From assembly GCA_022616555.1 (NCBI GenBank), contig JAKEEG010000084.1, forward strand, positions 1-33,298: DNA of 33,298 nt. Direction: 5' to 3'. The position numbers and the translations under genes are program-made. The notes beneath the pieces are model-generated. The model did no database searches. It saw only the letters and a list, made by a program, of their open reading frames with translations, and had not been told where the DNA came from. This document shows, piece after piece, positions 15,034 to 24,117 of this stretch. Position 1 is the first letter of the stretch, and each line of letters begins with the position of its first letter. The DNA comes from Ignavibacteriota bacterium (GTDB lineage: Bacteria > Bacteroidota > Ignavibacteria > UBA10030).

Positions 15034-15040
15034 TTACGTC

Positions 15041-15112
15041 ACCCGAACCTGCCTACCGGCAGACATGCTTGTTTCGGGGTCTATACATATGATGCTGAAA
15101 CAAGTTCAGCAT
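15041..15112. repeat. Compound palindromic repeat with a 20-bp insert
   Basis: ACCCGAA (15041-15047) should pair with TTTCGGGGT (15072-15080) but is separated from CTTG by 20 extra bases, CCTGCCTACCGGCAGACATG (15048-15067), which contain the palindrome CTGCC-TA-CCGGCAG. A second stem, ATGCTGAA (15092-15099) with TTCAGCAT (15105-15112), follows. The core CTACCGGCAGACA recurs at 6696-6708. Confidence 0.65.
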
Positions 15113-15157
15113 GACGTTAGTCGACAGTATCGCTAAAAATCCTCGTCTTAATTTTAC

Positions 15158-15195
15158 AAAAAAACAAGCTGCCCGCCGAACGACGGGCAGCTTTT
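15158..15195 (-). terminator. Strong intrinsic terminator for the minus-strand small gene
   Basis: Perfect 10-bp stem AAGCTGCCCG (15166-15175) and CGGGCAGCTT (15184-15193). On the minus strand it is followed by G and seven T (the A-run 15158-15164), giving a textbook terminator 57 bases past the stop codon at 15251. TTAG on the other side would make it only weakly active in the + direction. Confidence 0.85.
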
Positions 15196-15250: not shown

Positions 15251-15454
15251 TTAGTCTTTCGAGCCGTGGCTCTTAGAACTGTGGGATTTGGAACCGCTGC
15301 TCTTGCTCCCCGAGCTCTTTGAGCTATGGGAGCCTTTTGAGCCACCGCTTGCGGACGCAGAGGCGTCGAGACCGATTCCGATTCCGACTCCCAACCCTCC
15401 GCCCGGAGCGATGCGTTGTTCCAGCGTCTCCAGTTCAAGATTTAGATGTTTCAT
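15251..15454 (-). CDS. Small LExLExR-motif protein with Ser/Gly/Lys/His-rich tail
   Basis: 67 residues from ATG 15454, preceded by a perfect AGGAGG with 8-base spacing. Residues 3-17 read HLNLELETLEQRIAPG, an L-E-x-L-E-x-R-x-x-P pattern like the N-terminal LEPR-type motif of planctomycete and related secreted proteins (role unknown). A glycine-rich hydrophobic stretch (GGGLGVGIGIGLDASASAS) and a tail of repeated SK(S/H)(S/G) tetrads follow, with no tryptophan and no cysteine. The frame also opens at TTG 15538, which has its own AGGAGG at 7-base spacing and would add 28 residues, so two starts may be used. The terminator downstream and the two ribosome sites support a real gene. It could be a precursor peptide or a small exported protein. 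Confidence 0.7.
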   Translation of the reverse strand: MKHLNLELETLEQRIAPGGGLGVGIGIGLDASASASGGSKGSHSSKSSGSKSSGSKSHSSKSHGSKD

Positions 15455-15976
15455 ACGTCTCACCTCCTGTTCGTTGTTTGGATATTCTCCTAGCCGAGAT
15501 CTCCAATGCGTGCAAGGAGAATCTGTATCGTAAGGCAAGCCATTCCCTCCTTTCGTATTAGGGATCGAGCAACATGTGCTGTCTGAGTCTAGAGTTATTT
15601 TACCAATGTGCGTTTAACAACAGCGTATGGCGGAGGTAGAGAGGATGCAACTGTGCAACGGACGCTTTTGTATCAAATTCATTTCTCAGCTCTTATCGGT
15701 TTTAACGCTCTTGGATTGGAAAGAGTTTCGTTGAGTTCAAAGAAAAATCTCGCACGAGCGCGAAAAAGTGTCACGGAAATGTACGAGTGTTCGCGTGAGT
15801 CGTCAGCTTTGCACATTGATTCGTGTCGTGTCTGACGTACGGCCGCGCGAAACGTCGCATGCAGCGGGGAAAAATGTAACGCGTACATAAGTTGTACACG
15901 CTGCATTCTGTGCTTGATATTCTCGACATCTCCCGTTATTATTTTAGCTGTTATGAGCGTTTAGGCAAAAGCATAT
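15455..15976. other. Leader and gap upstream of the small minus-strand gene
   Basis: The first 85 bases are the alternative N-terminal extension or leader of the minus-strand gene. From about 15560 to 15970 I see no gene with start signals, no tRNA and no clear palindrome. It must hold the promoter for the minus-strand gene, but no good -35/-10 pair stands out. Confidence 0.5.
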
Positions 15977-16047: not shown

Positions 16048-16088
16048 CGACGGTGTTTTTATCTCTCAATCATCTAACCGGAGCCGCC

Positions 16089-18212
16089 ATGTCAACTCGA
16101 GCCGCACTGCTGTTCGTGATTGCGTTGGCAATACTCACAATACCTTCAACAGCACAAATGACGAACGGAATACAACCGCCTGTCGCTGAGGTCAACCCCA
16201 CGACACTCGAAAAACACGGGCATCAGCGCGTCGATAATTACTTTTGGCTGAACCAGCGCGAGAACCCCAAAACCATCGACTACCTCAACGCGGAGAACGA
16301 TTATACCGACAAGGTGATGGAGCCGACGAAGGCGCTGCAGGAAAAACTCTTCGAGGAGATCAAAGGGCGCATCAAGCAAACAGACACGTCCGTGCCGTAC
16401 AAGCTGGACGATTACGTCTATTATACTCGCTTCGAGGAGGGCAAGGAATATCCCATCTACTGCCGCAAAAAAGCGGTCGGGGACGCGACTGAAGAGGTGA
16501 TGATCGACGCGAACGAACTGGCAAAGGACAAAGGCTACCTCGCCGTCTCAGGACGTGAAATTAGTGCCGAGCAGAACATCCTCGCGTTCGCGGTCGATAC
16601 CGTCGGAAGGCGCATCTACACGATTTACTTCAAAAACCTCGCGACGGGCGAAACGCTGAAAGACGAAATCCCGAACGTCACCGGCAACATGGCGTGGGCG
16701 AATGACAACAAGACGCTCTTCTATACGCGACAAGATGAGACCACCCTGCGGTGGTATCGCATCTATCGCCACACGTTGGGCTCCGACCCGGCAAAAGACG
16801 AAATTGTGTTTGAGGAAACGGACGACACGTTCAACTGCTTCGTCTTCAAAACGAAGTCCAAAAAGTACGTCATGATCGGCACGAACCAGACTCTCAGTTC
16901 AGAATATCGCTACCTTGACGCCTCGAACCCGAACGGCGCGTTCTCCGTTTTACAAGTGCGTGAGCGCGACCACGAATACAGCGCGGACCACTTTGAGGGC
17001 CACTTCTACATTCGAACAAATCTCAGCGCGAAAAACTTCCGGCTGATGAAAACTCCCGTTGCTAAAACAACGAAGGAGAACTGGCAGGAGGTCATCCCTC
17101 ACCGCTCGGACGTGCTGTTGACGCGGTTTGAGATTTTCAAGGATTACCTTGTGCTCGGGGAAAGAAAAAGCGGTCTAACGCAAATCCGCGTTATGCCGTG
17201 GAACGGCAAAGGCGAGCACTATTTGCAATTCGAAGAGCCTGCCTATGCTGCAAACCTGAGCACGAATCTGGACTTCGACACAAAGCTCGTGCGCTACACC
17301 TACAGCTCGCTCACTACGCCACTCTCAGTGTATGATTACGACATGGCGAAGCGCGAAAGAACGCTCCTCAAGCAAGAGGAGGTCCTTGGCGGCTACGACC
17401 AGAAAAGTTACCAAAGCGAGCGCCTGTACGCAAAGGCGACTGACGGCACGATGGTTCCCATTTCGCTCGTGTACCGCAAAGGCATGAAAAAAGACGGCTC
17501 GAATCCGCTCCTCCTCTACGGCTATGGCTCGTACGGCGCGAGCATTGACGCCGGGTTTAGCTCCATACGCGTAAGCTTGCTGGATCGCGGGTTCATCTTC
17601 GCCATCACTCATATTAGAGGCGGACAGGAGATGGGCAGGCAGTGGTACGAAGACGGTAAGCTTTTCAAGAAGAAAAACACGTTTACGGACTTCATCGACT
17701 GTGCACAGCATTTGGTGAACGAGAACTACACGAACCCCTCTCGCCTCTTTATACAGGGTGGCAGCGCGGGCGGGTTGCTCATCGGCGCGGTGGTGAATAT
17801 GCGTCCGGATCTGTTTAAAGGCGCCATCGCGCAAGTTCCGTTTGTGGATGTGGTCACGACGATGCTGGACGACACCATCCCGCTCACCACGAGCGAGTAC
17901 GACGAGTGGGGCAACCCGAACGACAAGCCGTATTACGAGTATATGCTCTCCTACTCGCCGTATGACAACGTGGAGGCGAAATCCTATCCCAACCTGCTCG
18001 TCACAACCGGCTTGCACGATTCGCAAGTGCAGTACTGGGAACCCGCAAAGTGGATCGCCAAGTTGCGCACGATGAAGAAGGATAACAATGTGCTATTGCT
18101 GAAAACGAACATGGAAGCAGGTCACGGCGGCGCATCCGGGCGTTACAAGCGTTACCGGGAGATTGCGTTCGAGTACGCGTTCCTGTTGCAACTGCTTGGC
18201 GTGACGTTTTAG
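16089..18212 (+). CDS. ptrB: Oligopeptidase B (S9A serine peptidase) with signal peptide
   Basis: Cleaves peptides after basic residues. The 707-residue protein has a signal-like N-terminus (MSTRAALLFVIALAILTIPS, then TAQ), an N-terminal strand region (HGHQRVDNYFWLNQRENPKT), a seven-bladed propeller about 90-430 and an alpha/beta-hydrolase domain. The triad is visible: S559 in GGSAGG, D644 in TTGLHDSQVQYWEP and H679 in EAGHGG. Other family blocks are YGSYGASIDAGFSSIR, ITHIRGGQEMGRQWYEDGK and SEYDEWGNPNDKPYYEYM. Start at ATG 16089 has GGAG 7 bases upstream; the frame extends to 16053 but that part overlaps the end of a repeat. An export signal is unusual, since the E. coli enzyme is cytosolic. 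Single gene. Confidence 0.93.
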   Translation: MSTRAALLFVIALAILTIPSTAQMTNGIQPPVAEVNPTTLEKHGHQRVDNYFWLNQRENPKTIDYLNAENDYTDKVMEPTKALQEKLFEEIKGRIKQTDTSVPYKLDDYVYYTRFEEGKEYPIYCRKKAVGDATEEVMIDANELAKDKGYLAVSGREISAEQNILAFAVDTVGRRIYTIYFKNLATGETLKDEIPNVTGNMAWANDNKTLFYTRQDETTLRWYRIYRHTLGSDPAKDEIVFEETDDTFNCFVFKTKSKKYVMIGTNQTLSSEYRYLDASNPNGAFSVLQVRERDHEYSADHFEGHFYIRTNLSAKNFRLMKTPVAKTTKENWQEVIPHRSDVLLTRFEIFKDYLVLGERKSGLTQIRVMPWNGKGEHYLQFEEPAYAANLSTNLDFDTKLVRYTYSSLTTPLSVYDYDMAKRERTLLKQEEVLGGYDQKSYQSERLYAKATDGTMVPISLVYRKGMKKDGSNPLLLYGYGSYGASIDAGFSSIRVSLLDRGFIFAITHIRGGQEMGRQWYEDGKLFKKKNTFTDFIDCAQHLVNENYTNPSRLFIQGGSAGGLLIGAVVNMRPDLFKGAIAQVPFVDVVTTMLDDTIPLTTSEYDEWGNPNDKPYYEYMLSYSPYDNVEAKSYPNLLVTTGLHDSQVQYWEPAKWIAKLRTMKKDNNVLLLKTNMEAGHGGASGRYKRYREIAFEYAFLLQLLGVTF

Positions 18213-22789: not shown

Positions 22790-23197
22790 ATGAAAACGAT
22801 TCTGCTGGTCGAAGATGAACGAGACCTGTCCGACGTCCTCGGCATGGTCTTCAGCGAGGAAGGGTATGCTGTCTATCATATGCAGCAGGCGGAAGAGGCG
22901 TTGGAATTTTGCCTCCTCACAACTCCCGACCTTATCATTTCCGACGTTCAGCTGGGAGGCATGGACGGATTGGCATTCCTGAAAGTTGTGCGCGGTATTG
23001 GCCGGCTGCACCGGGTGCCGTTCGTGGTCGTGAGCGCAATGAACGACGCGTCGTTCGTCGGGATTGCAAAGGAATTCGGCGCGACGGCGTATTTCTCAAA
23101 ACCCTTTGACGTCGATGAACTTGTGGGAGCGGTGAACAGAATCCTGTCCCCGCAGAGAAAACACAAAAAATTGGTCTCGCTCAGACACGCGATATAA
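22790..23197 (+). CDS. Single-domain CheY-like response regulator, copy 1 of 3
   Basis: 135 residues, receiver only, no output domain. Key residues are present: the acidic pair E8/D9, phospho-acceptor D52 (LIISDVQLGGMDG), Ser82 in VVVSAMND and Lys104 in YFSKPFD. It should act by protein interaction or as a phosphate relay, cytosolic. The C-terminal extension is basic (SPQRKHKKLVSLRHAI). The terminator-like stem at 22683-22740 lies just upstream. Closely related copies follow at 23256 and 23710. Confidence 0.92.
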   Translation: MKTILLVEDERDLSDVLGMVFSEEGYAVYHMQQAEEALEFCLLTTPDLIISDVQLGGMDGLAFLKVVRGIGRLHRVPFVVVSAMNDASFVGIAKEFGATAYFSKPFDVDELVGAVNRILSPQRKHKKLVSLRHAI

Positions 23198-23255
23198 CGT
23201 GTCACGCGAGTTCATAATTCCAAACCATCATTCTCTGAGAAAACAAAAAATAACC

Positions 23256-23663
23256 ATGAAAACAATCCTGCTTGTGGAAGATGAACGAGGCCTAACCGAC
23301 GTGCTGCAAATGGTGTTTAGCAAGGAAGGATACCACGTGTATCGCATGCAAAGGGCTGAAGATGCGTTGGAATTTTGTCTCATGACCACTCCCGATATCA
23401 TCATCTCCGACATTAAATTGGGCGGGATGGACGGGCTGGCTTTCTTACAAATGGTGCGCGGTACTGAACGGCTACGCGATGTGCCGTTCGTGGTGATCAG
23501 TGCAACGGACAATTTGTCGTTTATCGGGATTGCGAAGGAATTCGGCGCCACGGCATATTTCTCAAAACCGCTCGATGTCGACGAGCTCGTTGAGGAAATC
23601 AACAATATCCTTTTGCCCCAGGTAAAAACTGAAGCACCGACTTCACACTGGCCGATAGTGTGA
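23256..23663 (+). CDS. Single-domain CheY-like response regulator, copy 2 of 3
   Basis: 135 residues from ATG 23256 (MKTILLVEDERGLTDVLQMV), the same length and opening as copies 1 and 3; the frame runs back to 23199, but that part is not shared. D9, D52 (IIISDIKLGGMDG), S82 and K104 (YFSKPLD) are all kept. It is 58 bases from copy 1 and 46 bases from copy 3, so the three are likely co-transcribed and arose by tandem duplication. The C-terminal tail (VKTEAPTSHWPIV) differs from those of the other copies. Confidence 0.92.
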   Translation: MKTILLVEDERGLTDVLQMVFSKEGYHVYRMQRAEDALEFCLMTTPDIIISDIKLGGMDGLAFLQMVRGTERLRDVPFVVISATDNLSFIGIAKEFGATAYFSKPLDVDELVEEINNILLPQVKTEAPTSHWPIV

Positions 23664-23709
23664 TAGTGTGACGGTATAGATCATTCCACAAAGAAAATCA
23701 CAAAATTCC

Positions 23710-24117
23710 ATGAAAACAATCCTGCTGGTCGAAGACGAGCCAAGCATAGCCGAAGTGCTGAAGATTGTATTCAGCAGCGAAGGATATACTGTATATCGCG
23801 TACAGACCGCTGAAGAAGCGCAGGAACTTTGCCTCACGATCATACCCGATATTATCATTTCCGACCTTAAATTAGAGGGAATGGACGGGCTGGCATTTCT
23901 GCAGATAGTGCGTGCTCACGAGAACTTGCAACTAATACCGTTTGTCGTGATCAGTGCAACGGGCGATCCATCGCTCGTTGGGGTTGCAAAGGAATTCGGC
24001 GCCACAGCGTACTTGTGGAGGCCATTCGATGACGAAGAACTTGTGGAAGTGGTCAGCCGCATTCTGATACCGCACAAGAAACACAGAACTTCAGTTTCAC
24101 TCTGGCCGTTGGTGTAA
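23710..24117 (+). CDS. Single-domain CheY-like response regulator, copy 3 of 3, Lys replaced by Arg
   Basis: 135 residues. D9, D52 (IIISDLKLEGMDG) and S82 are present, but the usually invariant lysine is Arg104 (AYLWRPFDDEEL, where the other copies have YFSKP). That lysine contacts the phosphoryl group and helps the switch, so this copy may be poorly switched or locked. The substitution also brings a Trp at 103. The TAA stop overlaps the terminator of the convergent phosphatase gene. Confidence 0.92.
   Translation: MKTILLVEDEPSIAEVLKIVFSSEGYTVYRVQTAEEAQELCLTIIPDIIISDLKLEGMDGLAFLQIVRAHENLQLIPFVVISATGDPSLVGVAKEFGATAYLWRPFDDEELVEVVSRILIPHKKHRTSVSLWPLV

Follow-up and report, generated by a model that had tools for sequence, protein, structure and literature searches.

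In a 33,298-nucleotide stretch of DNA from an Ignavibacteriota bacterium (contig JAKEEG010000084.1; hereafter, the window), we identified a short gene that probably encodes a precursor peptide with an 18-residue leader, for which we regard modification and cleavage as putative. Judging from the genes that accompany its homologues, we think there is a reasonably good chance that the leader is gripped by an RRE-like domain, cut by an M50 protease and coupled to export by an HlyD part, while the tail is modified by a ParB-fold protein.

The peptide gene is real. It runs on the reverse strand from an ATG at position 15454 to a stop at 15251 (15251..15454), encodes 67 amino acids plus stop (MKHLNLELETLEQRIAPGGGLGVGIGIGLDASASASGGSKGSHSSKSSGSKSSGSKSHSSKSHGSKD), and is flanked by a strong ribosome site and a terminator. 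The Shine-Dalgarno sequence AGGAGG (15463..15468, reverse strand), within AGGAGGTGA, lies 8 nt before the ATG, and a AGGAGGTGA-like core also precedes most of the homologous peptide genes. The initial annotation had proposed two functional starts, this ATG and a TTG at 15538. Both are indeed in one frame on the reverse strand, ending at 15251, with AGGAGG located 8 and 7 nt upstream, respectively, but only the ATG form is conserved, since five of seven homologues carry an in-frame stop one or two codons before the ATG. Neither the TTG nor the AGGAGG before it, on which the longer form relies (15536..15551, reverse strand), is conserved, and AGGAGG placed 4–11 nt ahead of a start codon occurs nine times in the window; the two-start model was rejected on these grounds, and the TTG is probably not used. 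The strong terminator described after the gene is present, slightly beyond where it had been placed (15166..15193, reverse strand), as a 12-bp stem followed by a U run (folding z = -4.7). The accompanying idea that the gene forms an independent unit holds in the window but not elsewhere, where the peptide gene adjoins, and normally lies just upstream of, a gene for an RRE-M50-HlyD fusion protein. Other features of the window include a palindromic repeat-like intergenic sequence at 15040-15120 (GCTGAAACAAGTTCAGCATGACG), a prolyl-oligopeptidase-like gene beside the peptide gene in divergent orientation (16053-18212), and three tandem single-domain response regulators (22790-24117, forward strand).

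The first 18 codons (15401..15454, reverse strand) encode the leader MKHLNLELETLEQRIAPG, an N-terminal M-x-x-L-x-L-E-L-E-x-LEQRIAP sequence that is near-identical in five phyla and under purifying selection. Its closest forms, from Ignavibacteriales, Bacteroidetes, Acidobacteria, Verrucomicrobia and Eisenbacteria MAGs, keep M(K/R)HLNLELE(K/T)LEQRIAPG nearly unchanged. Pairwise codon differences among eight leaders comprised 247 synonymous and 41 non-synonymous changes, so it is the protein sequence of the leader that is kept. The remainder of the gene (15254..15400, reverse strand) encodes a variable tail, made of a Gly-rich patch and then Ser/Lys/His repeats. Homologue tails are of the same low-complexity kind, most of them combining Gly with Ser/Thr and Lys/His, and are wholly different in sequence. 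A search with a profile built on residues 1-20 recovered the leader from 3 of 391 genomes in the window's class, 4 of 347 in an Acidobacteria set, 1 of 288 in a Verrucomicrobia set, and 4 of 47 in an Eisenbacteria set. A scan of named genomes placed it in Acidobacteria gp5 and gp18, Opitutia, Chthoniobacterales, Ignavibacteriales, Eisenbacteria and Bacteroidetes MAGs, and all leader-bearing records whose titles were inspected are MAGs. Searches of plasmids with the peptide and of viral contigs with its leader confirmed none. With a conserved leader and a variable core, the window peptide has a general hallmark of a RiPP precursor. The initial annotation had suggested, as one possibility, a modified-peptide precursor and had staked this on the existence of homologues with a conserved motif and a variable tail; such homologues exist, and together with the conserved partner genes described below they support the suggestion well.

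The peptide gene or genes adjoin a gene encoding a fusion of a PqqD/RRE-like domain, an M50 intramembrane protease and HlyD in all 12 other genomes found, and a gene for a ParB/sulfiredoxin-like protein follows in nine of them. Locus-versus-locus Blast recovered these same two genes downstream of each of the seven peptides outside the window, giving the operon order peptide, RRE-M50-HlyD, ParB-like in seven loci. The fusion protein is about 820 amino acids long. All seven members match Pfam M50 and HlyD, and the M50 part has invariant HE-x-x-H and N-P-x-x-K-x-D-G-Y-Y motifs; PqqD was matched in four of the seven (best E 3e-4), with a score of 20.3 against the Pfam cut-off of 23.4. The NCBIfam model daptide_HExxH (NF041824) covers residues 16-366, a span that includes the PqqD-like region, with an E of about 1e-61 and 207-210 bits, under its own cut-off of 300. 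Two genomes of the Acidobacteria set carry a diverged leader (...LEELEQRIAPS) and unrelated tails of the GYEGQPGNQG type, still beside RRE-M50-HlyD; the ParB-like gene is absent from both whole genomes. In one Eisenbacteria-set genome, RRE-M50-HlyD is surrounded by four leader-bearing genes, and the ParB-like gene survives near them only as an internally deleted remnant (locus L125, 7366-7497, reverse strand). A second RRE-M50-HlyD and ParB-like pair was seen in an Acidobacteria gp18 genome, its precursor lost off the contig end (L102, 3503-6786, reverse strand). The neighbour scans turned up no ABC exporter or TolC; at one locus (L066), an ABC_tran protein is encoded 2 kb beyond the operon.

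The window's own genome differs from these loci: the RRE-M50-HlyD gene is absent from the window and from the whole 98% complete genome, and the ParB-like gene was not found in that genome either. We therefore assign the window copy no processing route and regard it as an orphan precursor: a recent relic, or a gene with its partners in the unassembled ~2%. We see an even chance that the cassette came in by lateral transfer and then lost its operon, leaving this gene as a solo relic. This is favoured by the lack of partner genes in so complete an assembly, by the absence of leader matches from the genomes of its family that were sampled, and by the decayed ParB-like remnant of the Eisenbacteria genome. 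However, the gene keeps an intact leader, tail, ribosome site and terminator, and both partners would adjoin, so that a single assembly gap could hide the two of them.

The ParB-like protein, of about 340 amino acids, gave no Pfam or NCBIfam match when taken from the leader operons, and its profile found nothing in a PDB sequence search; a phage search with the protein gave no match. PHROGs returned a weak ParB-like match, and the M. nodulans homologue matched NCBIfam SerK with an E of 0.021. The top Foldseek matches were ParB, PadC, Srx, SbnI and the free serine kinase SerK (E 0.01-0.15), obtained with an AlphaFold model of pLDDT 41; as the full model is unusable and a trimmed one equally weak, we take this list as supporting only. 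The three sources agree in pointing weakly to a ParB/sulfiredoxin/SerK fold. The protein resembles SerK, SbnI and sulfiredoxin in an (N/D)GxHR motif region and in the Foldseek ranking, but differs from them in going with ribosomal peptides and in having no Pfam (ParB) match. Among the papers searched, none links a ParB-like protein to RiPPs.

Four alphaproteobacterial plasmids place the ParB-like gene after a gene for a peptide of 47-60 amino acids, which has a leader of the GA type (e.g., MRELTIDELTHVYGAG) and a repeat tail of Ser with Lys, Arg or Asn; genes for HlyD and a C39-ABC exporter adjoin. These double-glycine/GA leader peptides (M. nodulans, Paracoccus, Rhodobacter and Blastomonas plasmids) share with the LEQRIAPG peptides a similar Ser/Lys-type tail and a homologous ParB-like protein, but combine an MRxLxxxELxxVYGAG leader with the C39-ABC exporter in place of LEQRIAPG with M50-HlyD. 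Across these loci, the leader tracks with M50-HlyD, and the Ser/Thr-rich tail tends to accompany the ParB-like protein. The latter correlation is imperfect. A prediction made beforehand, that Ser/Lys tails and the ParB-like gene occur together, held in two Eisenbacteria-set genomes (G1073 and G1075). In G1069 the ParB-like gene is reduced to an internally deleted remnant, yet two of the four tails there are 23-26% Ser/Thr, and the window copy is a further exception, having a Ser-rich tail without a ParB-like gene.

Relatives of RRE-M50-HlyD are also encoded on alphaproteobacterial plasmids, with 25-31% identity over the protease part. They share an operon with giant genes in Pontibrevibacter (31.8 kb), Pseudosulfitobacter (38.8 kb) and Thalassospira (12.1 kb), as well as in Niveispirillum, Methylosinus and Alisedimentitalea; beside four other plasmid relatives, no giant was annotated within the stretch examined. 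All six giants carry a LEPR-type motif near the N-terminus (EPRVLLSAD, EPRFLLSAD, EPRILLSAD, EPRMMFDAA, EPRVLLNAD and EPRLLLAAD, the last, from Alisedimentitalea, just upstream of the annotated start), and the three tested all matched NF012209 (LEPR-8K) at 1e-7 to 1e-8. Several LEPR/giant operons (L105, L108, L111, L113 and L114) also contain HlyD and, variably, DUF3467, SecA/helicase- or prepilin-peptidase-annotated and TolC genes, gene sets that may form a giant-adhesin secretion system. The resemblance of the window peptide's N-terminus to LEPR-type signals, remarked on in the initial annotation, gains good support from these neighbours. Window-type leader and LEPR motif share E-x-R after a hydrophobic residue, within a hydrophobic-E-(P/Q)-R-hydrophobic pattern. 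They differ in that the LEPR-XLL motif continues LLxAD (LEPRxLLxAD) and the leader APG, and LEPR proteins span thousands of residues whereas the peptides here are short. Because the window peptide does not match the LEPR-8K model, we propose only that LEPR and LEQRIAP have a similar function, and claim no membership. Among the papers searched, we found none linking LEPR-XLL to RRE, M50 or HlyD.

The model we favour is a two-module system, in which RRE-M50-HlyD would act on the leader and the ParB-fold protein on the tail. By analogy with daptides, the RRE-like domain would grip the LELExLEQRIAP leader, the M50 domain would remove it at the inner membrane, and the HlyD part would couple release to export. 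Daptides set the precedent in that their leader is removed by an RRE-fused intramembrane peptidase (PMC10036551), a role proposed for MpaP. The ParB/sulfiredoxin-fold protein, encoded in most operons, would modify the Ser/Thr-rich tail, possibly by phosphorylation; this is a guess from the known Ser phosphorylation chemistry of SerK and SbnI (PMC12704722). The RRE-M50-HlyD type would also serve the giant LEPR-XLL proteins, and LEPR and LEQRIAP would therefore be versions of one leader signal. Alternatively, the leader could be a mere targeting signal of a secreted structural or adhesive peptide that stays unmodified, with the ParB-like protein as a regulator or chaperone. We consider this somewhat unlikely: the low-complexity S/K/G tails do resemble structural or matrix peptides, the LEPR relatives are giant surface-type proteins, and some precursor loci lack the ParB-like gene, but the ParB-like protein stays with Ser/Lys peptides even when leader and exporter are replaced.

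Among known systems, daptides (MpaA precursor, MpaP peptidase) come with a similarly short precursor, an acidic/Leu leader and an RRE-like plus M50 HExxH protease partner. In contrast, the protease of the leader operons is fused to HlyD and scores below the curated NF041824 cut-off, and the window peptide has no C-terminal Thr. No aminotransferase, oxidative decarboxylase, alcohol-dehydrogenase-type enzyme or methyltransferase of the daptide kind was found beside the window peptide, among the annotated neighbours or in Pfam scans of many neighbours, except for one weak methyltransferase match (L033). Judged by the curated cut-offs, the peptide does not belong to daptides, HxsA or LEPR-8K. The only NCBIfam match of the peptide is HxsA3 (NF038309; E 0.007-0.015, over the low-complexity tail), but it scores 16.2 bits against a cut-off of 65, the leader is unrelated and the scanned neighbours include no radical SAM protein, so that a place in the His-Xaa-Ser radical-SAM system is highly improbable. 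Even less credible is a spurious low-complexity reading frame, for which the repetitive tail and an open antisense frame would speak, and which is refuted by codon-level leader conservation across phyla, along with the ribosome site, terminator and conserved operon.

Under the favoured model, the LEPR-XLL motif, which is annotated on giant surface proteins without a stated role, gains a directly testable function, as the leader sequence recognised by an intramembrane protease that contains an RRE and has an export adaptor fused to it. The ParB-fold protein becomes a candidate peptide-modifying enzyme, one that accompanies Ser/Lys-rich tails even where leader and exporter are exchanged. A bolder version, which we consider distinctly unlikely, takes LEPR-type N-termini as leaders for an undescribed RRE-M50-HlyD route of processing and export, with cargo ranging from peptides of 50 residues to adhesins of 10,000, and casts the ParB/Srx-fold protein as a Ser/Thr kinase that turns peptides into silaffin-like phosphopeptides. 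If true, the LEPR-leader route and the ParB/Srx kinase would together define a new class of ribosomal peptide.
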